A stretch of DNA of 45,629 bases from a virus. The first letter of the stretch is position 1. Each line of letters begins with the position of its first letter. The notes below the pieces were generated by a model. It worked only from the letters and a program-made list of their open reading frames with translations, did not search any database and was not told where the DNA came from. A program made the translations under genes and the position numbers. Location: the IMG/VR virus record IMGVR_UViG_3300031977_003418, positions 1 to 45,629 of that record, one strand, 5' to 3'. This document shows positions 2,928 to 45,629 of the stretch, piece after piece.

Positions 2928-3284
2928 ATGTCTGCCGTCGACCGCATTCCCACGATCGGCCCGATCACCGAGGCCCGGATCCAGGCGGCCTTCGCCGAGG
3001 CGTGCGTGATCACGGCCGACGCCGCCTGCGGCCTGATCGGGTGCGATCCCCGGACCCTGCGCGAGATGACCGACGCCGGCATCATCCGGGCCGTGCGCAA
3101 GGGGGCCGGAAAGACGCGCGGCTACACCGAAGGTGACATCCGCGCATATCTGACAGAGAGTGCCGCGCCATGTCCGTCTACAAGCCCGCCAAAAGCCCGT
3201 ATTTCCAGTACGACTTCCAGATCAAGGGTCGTCGATTTCACGGCTCGACGGGCGTCGAAACGCGCCGCGCAGCTGAAGAAGTAG
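2928..3284 (+). CDS. Excisionase-like helix-turn-helix protein
   Basis: This 118-residue protein has ITADAACGLIGCDPRTLREMTDAGIIRAVRKGAGKTRGYTEGDIRAYL at residues 27-76, the pattern of a MerR/excisionase-type winged helix (HTH_17). It lies directly upstream of the integrase and overlaps it by 115 nt. Its last ~40 residues are an out-of-frame reading of the integrase start and look low-complexity. The likely role is directing excision or controlling integrase. A plain DNA-binding repressor of int is the alternative. Confidence 0.7.
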   Translation: MSAVDRIPTIGPITEARIQAAFAEACVITADAACGLIGCDPRTLREMTDAGIIRAVRKGAGKTRGYTEGDIRAYLTESAAPCPSTSPPKARISSTTSRSRVVDFTARRASKRAAQLKK

Positions 3285-4339
3285 AGCGCCGGATCCGCCG
3301 CGCCGCCTCGCTGGGCGAGCTGGACGACGCCAGCCTCATGACCCTCGATCAGGCCGCCGGCCGCTGGTGGGATGAGCATGGCTGCACCCTGAAGGGCGGC
3401 GACCGCCTCGAGGCGCGGATCGAGCGCGTCGTCACACTGATTGGGCCGTCGACACCCCTGCGCGACATCACCACCAAGGTCATCGCCCGGGCGATCGAGC
3501 GGCGCCGGGGCCAGGCACGGATCCATTCCTCGGCCGAGGGGGCGCGCCAGTACCTGCCCAGCGATTCCACCGTCAACCGGGACATGATCGACAGCCTGCG
3601 GCCTATCCTGAACCGCGCCCGCCGCACTTGGGAGGCCAAGCTGCCCGAGATCGACTGGGCCGCCCTGCGCAGGGCCGAGCCCAAACCTCGGCCGACCGAG
3701 TTCGCCGGCGATGAGTTTGAGCGGATGCTGGCAGAGGTGCGGCCCCACTGGCACCCCATGATCGACTTCGCCCGCAAGTACGGCGTGCGCCTGGGCGAGC
3801 TGTTCTTCAGCCTCGACGATCTGGACGTCTCCAACCCCGACGACGCGCGCGTCAAGCTGCGCGAGCGCAAGGGCGGCGATGAACACGTCATCCCGCTTCT
3901 GGCCGAGGACGCCGCCATGATGGCCGCGCGCCTCGGCCGGGCAAGCGCGGCGGGGCTCGACACGATATGGTTTCGGGAGAAACGCCTGTCAGGCCCAGGC
4001 GGCAAGCTGATCCTCAAGCCCCTCACCTATGGCGGGCTCGAGATCGCGGTCCGGCGCGCCATGACCCGGTCGGGCCTGCGCGCCTCAAAGGGCATGCGCG
4101 GGATCCACGCCACACGCCACCACGCCGCTATGCAGACCCTTCGCAAAACGAAGAACCTACGGGTCGCCCAGCTGCTGCTGGGCCATGCCGACATCAAGTC
4201 GACGATGGTCTACGCCCACGCGATCGAGGACGACGTCCGGAACGCGCTGGCAGAGGTTCACCGCGAAAATTTGCTGGATGAAGCATCGACGGCCAGCCCG
4301 AGTCCACGATCGGGAACGGCGTCGGCAACAGCTGAGTGA
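3170..4339 (+). CDS. int: Tyrosine recombinase (phage integrase)
   Basis: The 389-residue protein has an N-terminal AT-hook/arm-type start, a SAM-like core-binding segment (about 55-155) and a catalytic domain with R207 (KYGVRLGEL), K234 (RERKGG), H313-x-x-R316 (HATRHH), H339 (LLGHADI) and Y348 (MVYAH). All catalytic residues are present. It should recombine the attP at 5545-5589 with a host tRNA gene. It lies about 1.2 kb from attP with the Fic module between. It is the last gene of the rightward operon, so lytic transcription reaches xis and int last. Confidence 0.95.
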   Translation: MSVYKPAKSPYFQYDFQIKGRRFHGSTGVETRRAAEEVERRIRRAASLGELDDASLMTLDQAAGRWWDEHGCTLKGGDRLEARIERVVTLIGPSTPLRDITTKVIARAIERRRGQARIHSSAEGARQYLPSDSTVNRDMIDSLRPILNRARRTWEAKLPEIDWAALRRAEPKPRPTEFAGDEFERMLAEVRPHWHPMIDFARKYGVRLGELFFSLDDLDVSNPDDARVKLRERKGGDEHVIPLLAEDAAMMAARLGRASAAGLDTIWFREKRLSGPGGKLILKPLTYGGLEIAVRRAMTRSGLRASKGMRGIHATRHHAAMQTLRKTKNLRVAQLLLGHADIKSTMVYAHAIEDDVRNALAEVHRENLLDEASTASPSPRSGTASATAE

Positions 4340-4343
4340 CGGC

Positions 4344-4997
4344 CTACCCTTGACCAGCCGGGATGGATTCCAGCTGGGCCCGTAGCAACCGCTCGACGAA
4401 GGCATGCATGGGGTCCAAATCAGCGACCCCTGCGGCGGCAATAGCTTGGTCCGCATGCGCCAAAGCCGCTTCGTATTCATCTCGGTTGCTGGTGATCAGA
4501 TCGATCAATGTGACTGAGCCGGGCAGCATGAACCCATATTTCAGATTGACGCAGGCATAGGCGAAGGCCCTGGCCGTTCGGCCATTGCCATTCTTGAACG
4601 GATGCACCCAGTTGATGCGCCAAAGGGCGTAGGCAGCCACCTGGACGGCCGACGCATTGGGCCACATGGCGGCCATCTCGGCTTCGAAAGCTTCCATGAG
4701 GCCGGGGACCGCGGCGAACGCCGGAGGGTGGTATTCGCCTCCGTCGCGACGTCGCACCAACACGTCACAAGTTCGATACCGACCCGGCTGCCGAAGCAAG
4801 AGCAACGTTCCAGTTCGGTGAAGCTCAAGCAATATTTCTTGCCCAGGCGGTATTGCGCACTCGGCTCCAGGAGTCTGGTCGTGATGGGTCAGGAATCTGA
4901 CCAGAGCTTCAATTACGTTCGCTTGGTTTGCCTGATTGAGGACCTCGATCTCATGGGCATCGGCGCCGTTGATCAACTCCCAGTTTGCATCAAACAT
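4344..4997 (-). CDS. Fic-domain protein (AMP-transferase-like)
   Basis: The 217-residue protein has the Fic signature HPFKNGNGRTAR at residues 132-143, with the catalytic histidine at H132 and a helical bundle round it. Fic enzymes usually move AMP from ATP to target proteins. The position normally acidic (Asp/Glu, metal binding) is Asn136, a variant seen in part of the family, so activity cannot be assumed. A small gene upstream (5067-5255) may be its antitoxin. A strong terminator stands between them, just before the Fic start. It converges with int and is likely a prophage-expressed toxin or defence gene. Confidence 0.88.
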   Translation of the reverse strand: MFDANWELINGADAHEIEVLNQANQANVIEALVRFLTHHDQTPGAECAIPPGQEILLELHRTGTLLLLRQPGRYRTCDVLVRRRDGGEYHPPAFAAVPGLMEAFEAEMAAMWPNASAVQVAAYALWRINWVHPFKNGNGRTARAFAYACVNLKYGFMLPGSVTLIDLITSNRDEYEAALAHADQAIAAAGVADLDPMHAFVERLLRAQLESIPAGQG

Positions 4998-35487: not shown

Positions 35488-35906
35488 AGCCAGAACCCCC
35501 CGCTTCGGGCTTCGGGCTTCGGGCTTCGGGCTTCGGGCTTCGGGCAAGACCGCGTCGGCACCCCGCTCAGCGGCTCCATGAACCGGCTGCGCGCACCCAC
35601 GGCATCGACCGGCCCGATGGCCTCGCTGATGGCCAGCAGCTGATCCGTCGTGAAGCCCGCCTTGCGGCCCTGGCTGGGGGCGACCTCGGGACCATGCAAG
35701 GCGAAGATCCGGGCCAGGACCTGAGGCGCAATGCCCATCCGTGCGCGAACCCCATGCGCGGCCAGCATCCGGGCCTTTCGCCCGGCCGGCGCGTTCCCCC
35801 GGCTGGGCTCAAACGCTTTCGCCGGATCGACCCCCAGCAGCATGCACGCCGCCACAATGGCCCGCGCGGCCTGCTCGGCCGAGATGGTCCGCACCGATCC
35901 CGTCAT
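35484..35906 (-). CDS. Early protein with repeat-encoded C-terminus
   Basis: The 140-residue protein has a helical body (AARAIVAACMLLGVDPAKAF, RKARMLAAHGVRARMGIAPQVLARIF) that could bind DNA, reminiscent of GcrA-like helices without clear homology. Its last 25 residues (PKPEARSPKPEARS) come from six copies of a 7-bp repeat (35502-35543). As 7 is not a multiple of three, a change in copy number would shift the reading frame and the coupled downstream start. Confidence 0.65.
   Translation of the reverse strand: MTGSVRTISAEQAARAIVAACMLLGVDPAKAFEPSRGNAPAGRKARMLAAHGVRARMGIAPQVLARIFALHGPEVAPSQGRKAGFTTDQLLAISEAIGPVDAVGARSRFMEPLSGVPTRSCPKPEARSPKPEARSGGFWL
35502..35543. repeat. 7-bp tandem repeat, six copies, within a gene
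   Basis: Six exact GCTTCGG units. Slippage by one unit would shift the frame of the 35484-35906 gene near its end. Confidence 0.9.
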
Positions 35907-36265
35907 CCGTCGATATCCTTCCGAAACGGCAGGCCCGGCTGCGGCTCACCGGCCGCCAGAACCACCCGGCACGCGCCGACCAGACGCCCGATCTCGGCCT
36001 CAAGACCGACCCGCTCCTCGCCCGACATCCCGCCAAAGTCCTTGCCGAGCCGGATCAGCCGCACGAACACACTGTCCGCCCCGGTGTAGCCCACGGGCAG
36101 AACGGCCTTGCCGGCCTTCTCGGCCGCCACCACGAACGGCAGCGCGCCCACCCCGTCCGGGCGGCACGCCTTCTCCGCCCGCTTCAGCAACCGGCCCAAC
36201 AGCCGCAGATCCTTGTCCGAAGGCCGGGGCGCGACACCCCGGCGGAACCGGTGGCGATGCGTCAT
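35903..36265 (-). CDS. Early protein of unknown function
   Basis: The 120-residue protein (MTHRHRFRRGVAPRPSDKDLRLLGRLLKRAEKACRP...) is basic at the N-terminus and helical. ATG 36265 has GGGAGG upstream. It starts only 15 bases from the family C element C1, which lies between it and the opposite-strand gene 36370-36675. Its stop overlaps the next start. Confidence 0.7.
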   Translation of the reverse strand: MTHRHRFRRGVAPRPSDKDLRLLGRLLKRAEKACRPDGVGALPFVVAAEKAGKAVLPVGYTGADSVFVRLIRLGKDFGGMSGEERVGLEAEIGRLVGACRVVLAAGEPQPGLPFRKDIDG

Positions 36266-36280
36266 GACGCGCCTCCCGCT

Positions 36281-36367
36281 TCCGGCCCATGCTCCGCCGC
36301 CGAAGGGGCGCATGACCCCTCCGGCGACTCGGCATCTACTCCCGGTTCCGACACACAGGAGAGATCA
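36281..36367 (+). repeat. Family C 87-bp module, copy C1
   Basis: It holds a hairpin (36298-36308 with 36316-36326, one A-C mismatch), then ACTCGGCATCTACTCCCGG and ACACAGGAGAGATCA, which provides the ribosome site for 36370. It matches C2 at 82 of 87 positions. On the other side lies the start of the leftward gene 35903-36265. Confidence 0.85.
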
Positions 36368-36369
36368 CC

Positions 36370-36675
36370 TTGGATCCCAACGACCCGACCATCCCGCCAG
36401 ACATGCACGATCTGGCCCGGATTTATGCACTCGAGCACATGGTATCGACGCTGTACCTGCTGCTCTCCATCCAGATCGCGGAGACCAAGGGCATGGGCTT
36501 TGCCCAGGTGGCGACCGAGCTTCGAGAGAACGTCAAGGGATCGATGACGGAGGGCGACTTGCCCCCCGCTTTCCTCGCCCTCATGCGGCATCATGCGGGC
36601 AAGGTGCTCGATCATGCCGTCGATTCCGCGCGGACGGCCGACGAACTGAGCGGCGCAGGAAACATCGCTGGCTGA
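36370..36675 (+). CDS. Small helical protein in an opposite-strand cassette (a)
   Basis: The 101-residue protein starts at TTG 36370 behind AGGAGAG from the C1 module. It is helical (MHDLARIYALEHMVSTLYLLLSIQIAETKGMGFAQVATELRENV) with no known family. It points rightward inside the leftward early operon. It looks like a moron with its own control module; it may be expressed when the early operon is repressed. Confidence 0.65.
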   Translation: MDPNDPTIPPDMHDLARIYALEHMVSTLYLLLSIQIAETKGMGFAQVATELRENVKGSMTEGDLPPAFLALMRHHAGKVLDHAVDSARTADELSGAGNIAG

Positions 36676-36738
36676 CGCGGGGCGCGGCTGGGCCAGCGAA
36701 CGGGCAAGTATGGTAAGAACCCGGGTCATCGGCTCGCC

Positions 36739-36825
36739 TCCGGCCCTTGCTCCGCCGCCGAAGGGGCGCATGCCCCCTCCGGCGACTCGGCATCTACTCC
36801 CGGCTGCGAAACACAGGAGAGATCA
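36739..36825 (+). repeat. Family C 87-bp module, copy C2
   Basis: Same length and plan as C1. It ends GAGAGATCA, then GG and the ATG of the zinc-ribbon gene. The opposite side abuts another ATGAC start (36729, minus strand) whose frame runs into cassette (a). Confidence 0.85.
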
Positions 36826-36827
36826 GG

Positions 36828-37040
36828 ATGACCAAGGGCCTTCTCGACGACCAGAAGATCGACTTTCCCTGCCCCGAGTGCAGCCGCAAGGTCGCGGCCC
36901 GCGTCGGTCAGCTCAAGCGAAGCCCGACACTGCGGTGTCCGGCCGGGCACAGTTTCGACGTCGACGCGAAACAGCTTGCCCGGGACCTGAAGAAGATCGA
37001 CCAGGCGATTGCGAACTTCCCCAAGACCCTCAAGTTCTAG
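36828..37040 (+). CDS. Small zinc-ribbon protein in an opposite-strand cassette (b)
   Basis: The 70-residue protein (MTKGLLDDQKIDFPCPECSRKVAARVGQLKRSPTLRCPAGHSFDVDAKQL) has CxxC and a later Cys/His pair, a small zinc ribbon, then a helical tail. ATG 36828 follows the C2 module ribosome site. It points against the early operon. A role binding nucleic acid is possible. Confidence 0.72.
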   Translation: MTKGLLDDQKIDFPCPECSRKVAARVGQLKRSPTLRCPAGHSFDVDAKQLARDLKKIDQAIANFPKTLKF

Positions 37041-37118
37041 GGCCTCGGCCATCAGCGCGACCAGCCGGTGCGGGGGAATGCGCGGCACCGCGCCCTCGGC
37101 ATGAAGGAACGGGGTCAT
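37041..37118 (-). pseudogene. 5' remnant of a leftward early gene cut by cassette (b)
   Basis: ATG 37118 overlaps the stop of the Cro-like gene (ATGA), which is how real genes in this operon start. It reads MTPFLHAEGAVPRIPPHRL and VALMAEA. It then runs into the antisense strand of the zinc-ribbon gene. The frame stays open to 36726, so a hybrid product is possible, but the natural gene appears to have been interrupted here. Confidence 0.4.
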
Positions 37119-37405
37119 TGGCCCGTCTCCGGCAGGGCGCCGATTGAGGCGGGCATGGGGTTGCGGGTCAGTGCAGCCGGGTACCAGTCAGCAGCCCCGA
37201 CCTCCCCGTCGGTGAAATCAAGCACGTCGCCCATCTGCACTTCGCTGGGGATAACCCGGCGGTCATGGGCGAACGGCAACAGATAGCGGCTCGCGGCCTG
37301 CGGGCTGATCTTCCACCGCTCCGCCAACCACGTCGGCCCGAGGCCGCGCGCGTGCAGCCACGAATGCAGCTTGGGGCGGGGTTTCAGCGGGGGAATGTCG
37401 GACAT
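37115..37405 (-). CDS. Cro-like regulator
   Basis: The 96-residue protein starts at ATG 37405, divergent from the repressor. It has LHARGLGPTWLAERWKISPQAASRYLLPFAHDRRVIP, a helix-turn-helix with the operator-binding helix near SPQAASRY. As first gene of the leftward early operon and facing the CI-like gene, it is the likely lytic regulator. The C-terminus has an acidic patch and YPAALTRNP. Confidence 0.78.
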   Translation of the reverse strand: MSDIPPLKPRPKLHSWLHARGLGPTWLAERWKISPQAASRYLLPFAHDRRVIPSEVQMGDVLDFTDGEVGAADWYPAALTRNPMPASIGALPETGQ

Positions 37406-37436
37406 GGGGCGGTCACCTGATTCGCGGTGACCACGA

Positions 37437-37486
37437 TAAACAAACTTATTCGGTGGATTTTGCAACTGTTTGGTTTAGAGAAAACC
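37437..37486. promoter_or_regulatory. Left operator/promoter between Cro-like and repressor genes
   Basis: AACTGTTTGGTTTA (37464-37477) and the inverted repeat GGTTT-N5-AAACC (37472-37486) lie in this gap; related words recur at 38805-38873. On the minus strand TTGCAA (37465-37460) and TGTTTA (37442-37437) are spaced 17 bases, a likely leftward promoter about 30 bases before the Cro-like ATG. The repressor start lies on the other side. Confidence 0.55.
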
Positions 37487-37538
37487 AATCATGCTGTCGC
37501 TCGCCACACGATCGGGGCCTGTTCAGGATGGTCGGGTC

Positions 37539-38291
37539 ATGTCCCGTCCGGTTGAATCACTCCTGTCCGACGACACCGCCACCCTGCTGGGCCGGGCGCT
37601 GTCCGTCCTACGCCAACGTGCGGGCCTGACCCAGGACGAAGCGGGCGAGCGCGCCGGCATCAGCGCGCAAGGCTGGGCCAAGTACGAAAAGGGCAAGGCC
37701 CCCTCGATCCACTATCCCAACCGCCAGAATGAGCTGACCGCCGCCCTCGGCATGACGGTCGCAGATCTCGAGCGTGAGAAACAGATCCTCAGCGGGCGCG
37801 GCGGCGGCACCGTCACCGACATCCGTCGCTTCATCGAGCCGCGCGAGGCCGAGCTGACCATCCGCGACCGTGTTCAGGCCGGGGCATGGCTCGCGGCTGA
37901 TGACTCTGACCAGTCCGAACCCCGTCGCTGGCCCTTTGCCCGCGACCCGCGCTTTCCGCATGCCGAACAATGGCTGTCAGAGGTCGTGGGCGACAGCGTC
38001 GATCGCCTCGGTATCTTCAACGGCGACCTGGTCCACTGCATTGATGTCGAGGGTTCGGGCTGGGCGCTGCAGAGCGGTGCCATCGTAGAGATCGAGCGCC
38101 TGCGGTTCGGCGGCTCAGAGCGCGAACTCAGCATCAAACAGGTCGAGATCACGCCCCAAGGCATCCTGTTCTGGCCCCGATCCAGCAATCCCCGCTGGAC
38201 CGAACCCCTGTCCCTCACCGATGGCGCGGGCGACGATGAGTTCGAGGTCCGCGTTCGGGGCTTCGTCGTCCAGTCGATCCGCCGGTTCTAG
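37539..38291 (+). CDS. CI/LexA-type repressor with S24 peptidase domain
   Basis: From ATG 37539 (AGGATGG upstream) the 250-residue protein has a helix-turn-helix (LSVLRQRAGLTQDEAGERAGISAQGWAKYEKG, 21-52) and a self-cleaving C-terminal domain: probable cleavage at A114-G115 (RVQAGAW), catalytic S153 (VVGDSV) and K200 (LSIKQVEI). This makes it an SOS-inducible prophage repressor. ATG 37491 would add 16 residues but has a poor ribosome site. It faces the Cro-like gene. Confidence 0.88.
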   Translation: MSRPVESLLSDDTATLLGRALSVLRQRAGLTQDEAGERAGISAQGWAKYEKGKAPSIHYPNRQNELTAALGMTVADLEREKQILSGRGGGTVTDIRRFIEPREAELTIRDRVQAGAWLAADDSDQSEPRRWPFARDPRFPHAEQWLSEVVGDSVDRLGIFNGDLVHCIDVEGSGWALQSGAIVEIERLRFGGSERELSIKQVEITPQGILFWPRSSNPRWTEPLSLTDGAGDDEFEVRVRGFVVQSIRRF

Positions 38292-38750
38292 CTACAGGCC
38301 CGCATTCCCCGCGTGCTCGATTGCGCCGTAGATGACGACGCAGTCGAGCGGATCTCTACTCCCGGCGCCATACTGAACCCACGTATTGTCAGCTGGTATG
38401 CGCCACAGCCACGCGCCGCGCGCCGGGCTGTAGGCTTCGTCCTCTCCATACTTCTGCTGCAGGAAGCGTTCGATATCAGGGCACCGCCCCTCCTGCGGAC
38501 GAAGGTCGACGCGGCTCAATCGGCCATCATGGAAGCGAAACTCCACCGCAAATCGAAATTGACCGAAGGCGTAGCTTCCCGTCGCCAGCAGTTCGCCGGT
38601 TGGCCTCAACCCATCGCCGTCACCGGGCACGAGCTGAGCCGACCCGCCCGATGCCGCCACGACCTCATCGGGCGTCATTCCCCAGTCGGTGAACTGCCAG
38701 CCCGGCTCTTGTGCCAGCAGGGCCAGACCCAGCACCAAGTGCATAAACAT
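38292..38750 (-). CDS. Secreted protein, probable lysogenic-conversion gene
   Basis: The 152-residue protein begins with a signal peptide (MFMHLVLGLALLAQ) and continues GWQFTDWGMTPDEVVAASGGSAQLVPGDG, with FRFHDGRLSRVDLRPQEG and a paired Cys late in the chain. ATG 38750 has GGAGG upstream. It lies back to back with the repressor and points against the rightward operon, so it may be expressed in the lysogen. The family is that of small periplasmic host-like proteins. Confidence 0.75.
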   Translation of the reverse strand: MFMHLVLGLALLAQEPGWQFTDWGMTPDEVVAASGGSAQLVPGDGDGLRPTGELLATGSYAFGQFRFAVEFRFHDGRLSRVDLRPQEGRCPDIERFLQQKYGEDEAYSPARGAWLWRIPADNTWVQYGAGSRDPLDCVVIYGAIEHAGNAGL

Positions 38751-38804
38751 CGCGGTCCCTCCAATCGGGACCACCTTAAGCGCGTCAGCGGCGCGTCCTA
38801 TAGG

Positions 38805-38877
38805 CAGTTTGGTTTAGCCCTACCTGTACGATCCAGTTTAAACCGCTTGGTTGACGACCCAACTGTTTAGTTACATT
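38805..38877 (+). promoter_or_regulatory. Right operator/promoter region
   Basis: Three words related to the left operator occur: CAGTTTGGTTTA (38805-38816), CAGTTTAAACC (38834-38844) and AACTGTTTAGTTA (38861-38873). TTGACG at 38851-38856 is a typical alphaproteobacterial -35 box, directly beside the last word; TAGTTA or TACATT may be the -10. This should be the main rightward early promoter, controlled by the repressor. Confidence 0.6.
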
Positions 38878-38905
38878 GTGCGCTCGAATCACGGAGCGCT
38901 TCGCC

Positions 38906-39682
38906 ATGCTGTCCAGTTCGGTCTCGAACCCTTCCTCCCCCGCCGCCACGTCAAACCCGGTCGCCCCCGACGAACGCCGTCCGTCGCCGGTCGACGCGGT
39001 CCTCGACTATCTGTCCGGCGATCCCGCCCGGTTCGCCCCCCGGCCGATCCAGCCGCAGGACCTGGGCCGCGCCGCCGTCGTCTTCGACATCGGCACCGCA
39101 CCGCCGACCCCGACGCTGGATCGATGGCGGGCGTATCGTCAGGCGACGAACCGCAAGATGGGCGACGACACTTGGGCCGGGCCGCGTCGGCCGCGATGGC
39201 CCGTCAAACTGGCCCGCGCGCTTCAGGCACGCCGCCGGGCGACCGGTCGGATGCTGACCGAGGCCCAGATTTACAAGGTCATGCGCCTGCAGCGCGTCAT
39301 CCGGCGGCCCCATCGCCCCCGAACTCTGACCTTCATCGAAATGGCGTGGCTGGCCGAGCTAGACGCCACCCCGCATCTGCCGAACGATCGCATCTATCTG
39401 GAGTCCGATCGCTGGCTCGCGGGTTTCCCGGGCCGCGCGCTCGGCACCGTCAATCAGCACGTCGCGCGCCTCAGTCTCGCGCGCAGTCCAGACGATGACG
39501 CGCCACAGCGCCTCGGTCTCGGCGTCAAGCAGGTCTATCCGCTCGCTCAGCTGCTTGAGCGTTTCTCTGGCCATTCGAATCTCTCCTCTGTTTCGCAACG
39601 TGGAGAAGATGCCGAGTCGCCGAAGGGGTCACCCGCCCCTTCGGCGGCGAAGCGCCCTCAGGTCGAGGGGGTGGCCCAATGA
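38906..39682 (+). CDS. First gene of the rightward operon, unknown function
   Basis: The 258-residue frame starts at ATG 38906 (GGAG upstream). Residues 1-155 look natural: a Pro/Ser-rich start with a family A-encoded APDERRPSP, then TLDRWRAYRQATNRKMGDD and PVKLARALQARRRATGRMLTEAQIYKVMRLQRVIRRP. From about residue 150 it runs antisense to the small gene 39359-39574 and through the C3 module, ending EDAESPKGSPAPSAAKR. The original C-terminus was probably replaced by the cassette. Confidence 0.6.
   Translation: MLSSSVSNPSSPAATSNPVAPDERRPSPVDAVLDYLSGDPARFAPRPIQPQDLGRAAVVFDIGTAPPTPTLDRWRAYRQATNRKMGDDTWAGPRRPRWPVKLARALQARRRATGRMLTEAQIYKVMRLQRVIRRPHRPRTLTFIEMAWLAELDATPHLPNDRIYLESDRWLAGFPGRALGTVNQHVARLSLARSPDDDAPQRLGLGVKQVYPLAQLLERFSGHSNLSSVSQRGEDAESPKGSPAPSAAKRPQVEGVAQ
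38970..38984. repeat. Family A palindrome, one mismatch
   Basis: ACGAACGCCGTCCGT encodes DERRP in the N-terminal linker of the 38906 gene. Confidence 0.7.
39359..39574 (-). CDS. Small helical protein in an opposite-strand cassette (c)
   Basis: The 71-residue product (MARETLKQLSERIDLLDAETEALWRVIVWTARETEARDVLIDGAERAARETREP...) is a natural-looking helical protein, behind GGAGAG of the C3 module. It is antisense to the 3' half of the 38906-39682 frame. It is the third case of a small gene headed by family C and pointing against the operon around it. No family is recognised. Confidence 0.6.
   Translation of the reverse strand: MARETLKQLSERIDLLDAETEALWRVIVWTARETEARDVLIDGAERAARETREPAIGLQIDAIVRQMRGGV
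39577..39652 (-). repeat. Family C module, copy C3
   Basis: Inverted relative to C1 and C2. The hairpin arms CGCCGAAGGGG / CCCCTTCGGCG are fully paired, because T replaces the mismatched C of C1 and C2. The far side leads to ATGACC of the rightward gene at 39679. Confidence 0.8.
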
Positions 39683-39972
39683 CCGCCACCGTTCACCGCC
39701 TTGAACCGGCGCGGCGTGCCGCTGGCCTTCCGCCGGTCAAGGTTCGTGCCGAACTCACCGCCACCCCTGACGAACGCCGTCCGTGGACCTACCCCGACCC
39801 TTGGTCGGGCGTCGTGTGGATGCCCACTCCGCGACGCACACGCCCGGCCCTCAGCTGGTCCGTCGCAGACCTGGTCGGCGCCACCAGCCGCCTCTTGGCC
39901 TGCATGCTGATCGCCGCCAGCCTCTTCATGTCGGCGGTGACGATCGCGGCCGTCGCGGTCGGGGGCGCCTGA
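39679..39972 (+). CDS. Small single-helix membrane protein
   Basis: The 97-residue protein has an arginine-rich cytoplasmic part (with a family A-encoded TPDERRPWTYPD) and one membrane helix near its end (LLACMLIAASLFMSAVTIAAVAV). Its ATG overlaps the previous stop. It could act early on the host envelope or on replication at the membrane; nothing more can be said. Confidence 0.68.
   Translation: MTATVHRLEPARRAAGLPPVKVRAELTATPDERRPWTYPDPWSGVVWMPTPRRTRPALSWSVADLVGATSRLLACMLIAASLFMSAVTIAAVAVGGA
39770..39784. repeat. Family A palindrome, one mismatch
   Basis: ACGAACGCCGTCCGT, the same variant as at 38970 and 42823. It encodes DERRP. Confidence 0.7.
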
Positions 39973-39973
39973 C

Positions 39974-40261
39974 ATGGCCCGTCCTGACCTCCTGCCTGAC
40001 ATCCTTCCGGCCCTGTCCGCCGACACCGTCAGGGGCCTTGTGCGTGACCTCTCGGGGTCGCTGGCCGCGACCGACCGCCCGACCAGTGCCGCCGCCAAGG
40101 CCATGGGGCGGGCCCTCGCCGTCATCCGCGCCGAGGAGCACCGGCGTCTCCGCGCTCCAGCAGCGAGGGACCGCGTCCCGAGCGATAGCGCCAGCATCCG
40201 CGCTCAAGCAGCGAGCCTCCGCGAGGCGAGCGATAGCGCCAGCATGGCGTCGTCGTCATGA
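39974..40261 (+). CDS. Small protein with a hairpin-repeat C-terminus
   Basis: The 95-residue protein has a helical N-terminal part (DILPALSADTVRGLVRDLSGSLAATDR, then AAAKAMGRALAVIRAEEHRRL) and a C-terminus encoded by two adjacent family B elements (ARDRVPSDSAS and QAASLREASDSAS). Its stop overlaps the next start. The repeats have lengthened the protein by 26 or more residues without breaking the frame. Confidence 0.68.
   Translation: MARPDLLPDILPALSADTVRGLVRDLSGSLAATDRPTSAAAKAMGRALAVIRAEEHRRLRAPAARDRVPSDSASIRAQAASLREASDSASMASSS
40154..40192. repeat. Family B 39-bp hairpin element, copy B3
   Basis: Stem GGGAC / GTCCC round CGC; GCTCC replaces GCTCA near the start. Confidence 0.85.
40202..40240. 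repeat. Family B 39-bp hairpin element, copy B4
   Basis: Stem GCCTC / GAGGC round CGC. It is 9 bases from B3 and at the gene end. Confidence 0.85.
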
Positions 40262-40623
40262 CCGCTACCTTCATCACCCGGGGTCATGTCGCCCTGCCCT
40301 TCCCCTCGGCCCAGGCCTTGGCCGCATGGCTGGTCACGCGCGCGGCGGGGGCGCCGATCGAACTGCTGCCCCAGCGCATCGCCCACGCGGGAACCCCGGC
40401 CGACGCCCCCATTGACGCCCTGGCCGTCTTCACCCGTCGCCCCGTCACCAGCACAGACGCGCGCGGCCGCACCATCACCACCATGGCCGACGTCTGGCAC
40501 GGCTGGGCCACCGACGGCGCCGCCGACCCCGTCGCCCTGCAGGCTGCAATCGACGCCCTCACGACGCCGGCCTCGGCCGAGACCCCGGCGCTTGCGGCAC
40601 TGCCCCTCGCGGGGGCCGCATGA
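40258..40623 (+). CDS. Early protein, member of a small paralogous set
   Basis: The 121-residue protein has HVALPFPSAQALAAWLVTRAAGAPIELLPQRIAHAG and IDALAVFTRRPV. The pattern F-x-S-x-x-A-L-A-A-x-x followed by ExL is shared with 40620-40943 and 44058-44579. Three copies in one operon suggest duplication with divergence, often seen in phage counter-defence or takeover genes. The function is unknown. Confidence 0.68.
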   Translation: MTATFITRGHVALPFPSAQALAAWLVTRAAGAPIELLPQRIAHAGTPADAPIDALAVFTRRPVTSTDARGRTITTMADVWHGWATDGAADPVALQAAIDALTTPASAETPALAALPLAGAA

Positions 40624-45111: not shown

Positions 45112-45417
45112 ATGACTGAAGCTACCCTGAAATCCCCGCTGATCGGCCAGAAGGTGATCGTCCGGACCTATTCGGCCGGCGTCCACATCGGCGTGCTCGA
45201 GGACAAATCGGGCAAGGAGGTTCGCCTCTCGAACGCCCATCGCCTCTGGTACTGGAAGGGCGCCTTCACCCTCAACCAGGTCGCCGAAACCGGCATCAAG
45301 TCGGGCTCCCGCGTCGGGGCGCCCCTTCCCCAGCTGGAGCTGACCGAGGCGATCGAGGTCTTCCCGATCACCGACGCGGCCTTTGCCACGGTGGAGGCCC
45401 ACATTGACCGGCAATAA
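45112..45417 (+). CDS. DUF6948-type phage protein
   Basis: The 101-residue protein starts at ATG 45112 with AAAGGAG upstream. GQKVIVRTYSAGVHIGVLEDKSGKEVRLSNAHRLWYWKGAFTLNQVAETG is typical of DUF6948, a small beta-rich phage family of unknown function, often followed by a Gly-rich repeat protein as here. Confidence 0.78.
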   Translation: MTEATLKSPLIGQKVIVRTYSAGVHIGVLEDKSGKEVRLSNAHRLWYWKGAFTLNQVAETGIKSGSRVGAPLPQLELTEAIEVFPITDAAFATVEAHIDRQ

Positions 45418-45625
45418 CACCTCGGCCGTAGCCGGCTACGGCGACGGCGACGGCTCCGGCTACGGCGACGGCGACGGCTCCGGCTACGGCTACGGCGACG
45501 GCTCCGGCGACGGCGACGGCTCCGGCTACGGCGACGGCTCCGGCTACGGCTACGGCGACGGCGACGGCTCCGGCTACGGCGACGGCGACGGCTCCGGCTA
45601 CGGCGACGGCGACGGCTCCGGCTGA
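45404..45625 (+). CDS. Gly/Asp/Ser/Tyr tandem-repeat protein
   Basis: The 73-residue product begins at TTG 45404 (GGAGG six bases upstream) as MTGNNTSAVAG and is then all Gly alternating with Asp, Ser and Tyr. It overlaps the DUF6948 stop and ends at TGA 45623-45625. Repeats in 6-base codon pairs make it prone to length change. The same frame is seen at 3-122 because the contig is circular. Such proteins often follow DUF6948 genes; the role is unknown. Confidence 0.75.
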   Translation: MTGNNTSAVAGYGDGDGSGYGDGDGSGYGYGDGSGDGDGSGYGDGSGYGYGDGDGSGYGDGDGSGYGDGDGSG

Positions 45626-45629
45626 TCCC
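45504..45629. repeat. Terminal overlap, right copy (circular contig junction)
   Basis: This matches 1-126 with two differences, as described for the left copy. Confidence 0.9.

Follow-up and report, generated by a model that had tools for sequence, protein, structure and literature searches.

In noncontiguous operons, one gene is antisense to the rest of the operon and has a promoter of its own, and the transcripts are mutually exclusive (review PMC7154746); in the Staphylococcus aureus phage 80alpha, the tha/ith pair of a defence gene and its antisense inhibitor is tied to the lysogenic or lytic state (PMC11087260). Here we describe a comparable arrangement in the virus record IMGVR_UViG_3300031977_003418, whose 45,629 nucleotides (nt) were analysed as one stretch (the window) and which we read as a temperate phage because it carries an integrase gene (3170-4339). 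Three small genes lie antisense within the early operons on either side of its repressor gene, all of them directed toward that gene, and each is preceded by a copy of the same module of ~90 nt (M1, M2, and M3). Likewise, the S. aureus men operon and 80alpha each have, inside an operon, an antisense gene equipped with its own control region; in 80alpha this gene lies in the cI operon region, and lysogeny and lytic growth differ in the expression of the two strands. Unlike in those cases, several small genes share one repeated leader, the operon strand remains open and is coupled to the next gene through ATGA, and the layout is known from sequence.

The small genes also resemble the moron or accessory genes of prophages, in that genes of varied type occupy one site of a temperate phage with their own control signals; they differ in lying antisense inside early operons behind a shared repeated leader, with no terminator seen and with an expression in the lysogen that is putative. 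The leader in turn recalls the SAS/ESAS elements of Cluster K mycobacteriophages (PMC3203893), in which a repeat bearing a Shine-Dalgarno (SD) sequence, with an inverted repeat upstream, precedes unrelated small genes. It departs from these in its sequence, in its three copies that all run against their operon, and in holding a GANTC site and a promoter-like pair; the SAS/ESAS consensus GGGATAGGAGCCC just before start codons is not matched by the module, which has ACA[CG]AGGAGAGAT. Finally, the extended GcrA-activation motif YGAKTCK (PMC7987155) is present in the three modules and in both early-operon leaders, as in the GcrA/CcrM promoters of Caulobacterales (PMC7987155, PMC3667746), and relatives of the phage encode GcrA-family proteins. 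Those promoters are dependent on methylation and on GcrA, whereas the likeness seen here is one of motif, and the host may not belong to the Caulobacterales.

A preliminary description of this DNA had reported three copies of the module, each with an 11-base-armed hairpin, a conserved segment, and a GGAGAG ribosome site directly before a small gene, and nearly all of this was recovered. M1 and M2 are identical at 82 of 87 positions (36281-36367 and 36739-36825), M3 is inverted with a complementarity to M2/M1 of 84-87%, and BLAST of M1 against the window returned M2 (1e-35), M3 (1e-21), and no fourth copy. Each copy has an inverted repeat with 11-nt arms, then GACTCGGCATCT, then GGAGAG, and ACTCGGCATCT is invariant across all three. 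The hairpin is perfect in M3 and has one mismatch in M1 and M2, A.C on the small-gene strand, which on the operon strand is a G.U pair; of 130-nt windows taken at random from these phages, ~2-3% contain arms of at least 11 nt with at most one mismatch. GGAGAG is present before every small gene, but it begins 12 nt 5' of the start codon rather than adjoining it. The opposite-strand ATGAC starts said to lie close to each module were located at 36265, 36729, and 39679 (Table 1).

Table 1. Coordinates of the modules, the small genes, and the surrounding immunity region and early operons in the window
Feature	Position	Strand	Remarks
M1	36277-36369	+	hairpin 36298-36326; YGAKTCK motif CGACTCG 36325-36331; promoter-like pair ATGACC 36312-36317 / TCTACT 36335-36340; SD GGAGAG 36358-36363
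M2	36735-36827	+	hairpin 36756-36784; YGAKTCK motif 36783-36789; SD 36816-36821
M3 (inverted)	39575-39667	-	hairpin 39618-39646; YGAKTCK motif 39613-39619; SD 39581-39586
Small gene 1	36370-36675	+	101 amino acids (aa), TTG start; three predicted helices; no database family; against left early operon
Small gene 2	36828-37040	+	70 aa; zinc-ribbon-like, paired cysteines
Small gene 3	39359-39574	-	71 aa; three predicted helices; against right early operon
Operon-strand frame antisense to small gene 1	36262-36729	-	ends in ATGA overlap with gene 35903-36265
Operon-strand frame antisense to small gene 2	36726-37118	-	4-nt overlap of its start with the Cro stop (37115-37118); coding-like in its first 26 codons
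Cro-like first gene, left early operon	37115-37405	-	TGATTCG in leader, 37418-37424
Repressor (CI)	37539-38291	+	HTH_31/HTH_3; longer frame starts 37491
TGATTCG motif	38885-38891	-	18 nt 5' of the right operon's first gene
First gene, right early operon (rightward)	38906-39682	+	coding to ~39358, then open across small gene 3 and M3 to ATGA 39679-39682

Three roles considered for the module were set aside. The hairpin is not taken as an intrinsic terminator, there being no T-run on either strand. A second hairpin that would sequester the SD (ATCT-N-CTCC with GGAGAGAT) can be drawn in all copies, but it was not counted as evidence because shuffled leaders form equally strong ones (fraction 0.08-0.16). 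As to control by CI, the operator-like repeats of the AACTGTTTGGTTTA type that flank the CI gene are, by inspection, absent from the modules.

By codon usage, the three small genes are real coding genes. With codon models built from each phage's own homology-supported genes, small genes 1, 2, and 3 beat the overlapping operon frames by 27, 20, and 15 nats, respectively. The product of small gene 2 matches phrog_4875 (E 4e-5) over residues 1-67, nearly its full length; searches with tblastn, Pfam, PADLOC, and fold comparison gave no other convincing homologue, and the products of small genes 1 and 3 are orphans (AlphaFold pLDDT 72 and 82). Pairwise BLASTP among the three proteins gave no match, in keeping with the earlier statement that they are unrelated, and what had been called a shared control element is one non-coding module placed before three unrelated small coding genes. 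That the proteins have an accessory or protective role is a guess. The module scores as non-coding by codon usage on both strands, and on that ground we rejected the idea that it is coding on the operon strand. A view in which only the operon genes are real, the small frames being mere shadows of them and the repeats shared C-terminal domains, is also very improbable; it draws on the long operon frames with their clean ATGA ends, whereas the codon models, the PHROG match, the good SD sites, and the non-coding statistics of the module speak against it.

Through the reversed genes, the operon strand stays open. Relatives were drawn from IMG/VR on the basis of their terminase, and seven phages with an early region, including the window, were compared. 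In the window and in G002, G012, G014, and G017, reversed genes stand between genes of one operon (gene map, 4-nt overlaps). The operon register is open in nine of nine such genes in these five phages while both other registers hold stops, seven of the nine end in ATGA, and in all nine the codon models favour the small antisense gene over the operon frame, by 9-66 nats. The frame opposite small gene 2, for instance, overlaps the next gene's start with its stop via ATGA 36726-36729. Two operon frames (37041-37118 and the 3' part of 38906-39682) had earlier been described as cut by a cassette, which is only half right: their codon usage looks like that of coding sequence until the reversed gene is reached and no longer after it, but the frame has no stop within any cassette and meets the next gene at an ATGA.

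With the rate at which antisense registers are open in these genomes as baseline, the chance of an open operon register in the eight gene-finder cases with their leaders is 3.7e-7, a value to be read with the unreliability of some control gene calls in two records; for the coding parts alone and homology-defined genes it is 1.4e-4. These products exclude the second G012 gene, since it came to light through its operon frame. A strict count restricted to the five cases from other phages, on which the open-frame hypothesis was not built, gives a product of ~0.002. It could be argued that the small genes are ordinary morons, with the open frames and ATGA ends a by-product of high G+C and ATGA-starting genes, and indeed equal-length stretches of real genes in these genomes are open in the codon-aligned antisense register in 52-86% of cases. 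We find this quite unlikely, since the next gene's ATGA fixes the register and codon alignment is thus itself a one-in-three event, since two of the nine reversed genes are not in the codon-aligned register and yet their operon frame is open, and since both operon frames of G014 (60% G+C) are open where ~6% would be expected with leaders.

Open frames of this kind might instead mean that functional proteins are made from both strands, with genuine operon proteins that end in a common module-encoded tail. Most of the operon frames have a start codon with an SD-like sequence and overlap their neighbours briefly at either end, the modules would encode a similar C-terminal peptide (LSxVSxxGxDAESPxGxxAPSAA), and N-terminal parts look coding in the slots occupied by small genes 2 and 3, by the second G014 gene, and by the G017 gene. 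We nevertheless judge such dual coding unlikely: within the slots codon usage prefers the small gene every time, G002 and the first G012 gene use the register in which the operon frame looks least coding, and the differences between modules are, by inspection, mostly amino-acid changing in the operon frame, in an element that is non-coding on both strands.

Comparison with relatives indicates what may occupy these slots. G002, the closest relative with an early region, is syntenic with the window and lacks the module; the site between its Cro gene and the operon is likewise occupied, by a different reversed gene (218 aa). Reversed genes after Cro are also found in G014, G012, and G017, and the content of the site differs among relatives, as is typical of morons (other genes in G002 and G014, none in G007 and G016). 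The presence of different small genes at one Cro/early-operon site implies that the genes are exchangeable, which agrees with the proposal of interchangeable small-gene cassettes. A profile of the three module copies had its best match among the relatives in G014, a distant one at 50% terminase (L076 12096-12050; E 0.13 over all loci), directly 5' of an 81-aa reversed gene adjoining the operon. The hairpin of this match has 13-nt arms that form 12 pairs, GACTC lies at -43, a pair TTGATT-18-TAGAGT lies at -34, and the SD ACACAGGAGA precedes an ATG. The 81-aa protein is weakly similar to the product of small gene 1 in a short N-terminal stretch, the first helix, with identity at 10 of 20 positions (E 0.04). 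To judge by these similarities, the G014 element is a probable, not a certain, relative of the M1 cassette.

Outside this record, the exact module was not found in IMG/VR, GTDB, annotated phages, or plasmids with exact patterns or BLAST. Exact patterns gave just chance matches within unrelated sequence in IMG/VR and four Brevibacterium loci, taken as chance, in GTDB; Caulobacterales genomes were searched by exact patterns only; and annotated phages and plasmids yielded no BLAST match. No phage carrying the module without a small gene behind it was encountered in the collections covered by these searches. The region 35500-40500 had no match among the Rfam 15 covariance models up to E = 1.

Each module contains a weak promoter-like pair at a constant distance from the start codon (ATGACC, ATGCCC, or GTGACC, then 17 nt, then TCTACT or TCTTCT). 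YGAKTCK lies in these putative promoters, each time at -42 relative to the small gene, and also in the Cro leader (37418) and the right-operon leader (38885). These places together account for 5 of the 13 sites of the window; shuffled sequences lead one to expect 56 sites of this Caulobacterales GcrA/CcrM motif, which may not be that of the host, and GANTC reaches about half its expected frequency. With M1-M3 counted once, we estimate the probability of this clustering at ~1e-5 at the phage's own low density and ~0.002 at the undepleted expectation. YGAKTCK is generally enriched in non-coding sequence, which by the gene calls makes up ~7% of the record; five sites are listed as non-coding, and a sixth, that of M3, falls under an operon frame in the gene calls. 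The motif recurs in the leaders of the reversed gene of G002, the second of G012, and the first of G014, and GcrA-family proteins (PF07750, E ~1e-19) are encoded in the early operons of G014 (L076 14208-15191) and G016 (L078 12345-13154). In a published survey of alphaproteobacterial phages, GcrA sites showed no positional bias (PMC9437464). We regard methylation-linked control through CcrM and GcrA as a serious hypothesis, not as a result. The Cro leader also contains a perfect palindrome, GGTCACC-N8-GGTGACC (37411-37432), whose spacer holds the TGATTCG.

The promoter-like features bear on the possibility that the copies represent a translation-start or regulatory repeat of the SAS/ESAS type, spread by recombination and devoid of a promoter, with the genes expressed by read-through or early. 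An SD and an upstream inverted repeat do precede unrelated genes, the ends of the repeat match gene ends, and such elements are paired with genes likewise in Cluster K phages (PMC3203893). This seems to us somewhat unlikely, as the -35/-10-like pair is equidistant from the start in M1-M3 and G014, the placement of GANTC suits a promoter, and every copy opposes its operon, so that an upstream promoter on the small-gene strand is not obvious.

Our preferred reading, to which we assign a probability of about 0.5, is that the phage has a noncontiguous operon whose reversed genes are moron-like and were inserted in such a way that the operon can still be translated, in slots with their own control element. 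Slots between translationally coupled early-operon genes would hold small accessory genes in antisense, and the module would probably combine a strong SD, a hairpin or operator, and a sigma-70-type promoter that contains a GANTC site of the CcrM/GcrA type. With the operon strand open from the preceding gene via the antisense gene and the module to the next ATGA, ribosomes could follow early transcription; translation of that strand across the slot, with coupling to the gene that follows, would avoid polarity and stretches of untranslated early mRNA. The chain of ATGA junctions is at most consistent with co-transcription across the slots. The small genes would most likely be made while the early operons are silent, in the lysogen, and after induction early transcription would oppose them, as in the noncontiguous operons of other phages. 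We infer promoter activity, lysogenic expression, mutual interference, GcrA control, a need for coupling, and protein function, with lysogenic expression and the opposition to early transcription suggested by the layout and by literature precedent.

Several observations weigh against this reading. A strict consensus scan found no canonical sigma-70 promoter, no intrinsic terminator flanks the modules, and no terminator-like site belongs to the three small genes. Sequestration of the SD in longer transcripts is no better than in shuffled leaders. YGAKTCK is absent from the leaders of the first G012 gene, the second G014 gene, and the G017 gene. Two of the seven phages (G007 and G016) lack an antisense gene after Cro, as do three more distant annotated phages.

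A more far-reaching version, which we put forward tentatively as possible rather than probable, is that a group of temperate phages of the alphaproteobacterial type accepts antisense accessory genes in early operons only in "frame-transparent" slots, where the operon frame is open to the ATGA and early translation would thereby stay coupled, and that slot genes and early operons are both timed by GANTC methylation of the host through CcrM and GcrA. The arrangement suggests a rule by which phages could add genes without breaking an operon, in antisense and with the operon frame left readable. Such a rule would explain the long open antisense frames beside the immunity region of these phages; it would also point to a methylation-timed lysogeny switch and offer a route to unannotated accessory genes.

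A second variable accessory site lies between the repressor and the right operon, with all of its genes convergent with the repressor gene. In the window it holds a gene (38292-38750) with a signal-peptide-like product, and in G002 (L066 12457-12759) and G007 (L072 8079-8363) genes for small membrane-anchored proteins. At the end of an early-operon gene, tandem 7-mers occur in the window (GCTTCGG, 35502-35546) and in G002 (GCCGGAC, L066 14954-15007), alike in period and place and different in sequence.

Elsewhere in the window, a Fic/DOC-family gene (4344-4997; PF02661, E 5e-14) adjoins the integrase gene downstream on the opposite strand. A palindromic repeat of ~40 nt (CGCTCAAGCAGCGAG...GCGAGCGATAGCG) is present in eight copies (14874, 14922, 40143, 40191, 42655, 43132, 43940, and 43988); several copies lie within genes, one reading AQAASDRVASDSA in frame in a ParB-like gene, and no match to it was found among plasmids. 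The ends of the record (1-174 and 45390-45629) consist of Gly/Asp-rich repeats of 12/18 nt that are up to 98% alike, perhaps reflecting a circular or end-repeated record broken within a repetitive gene.

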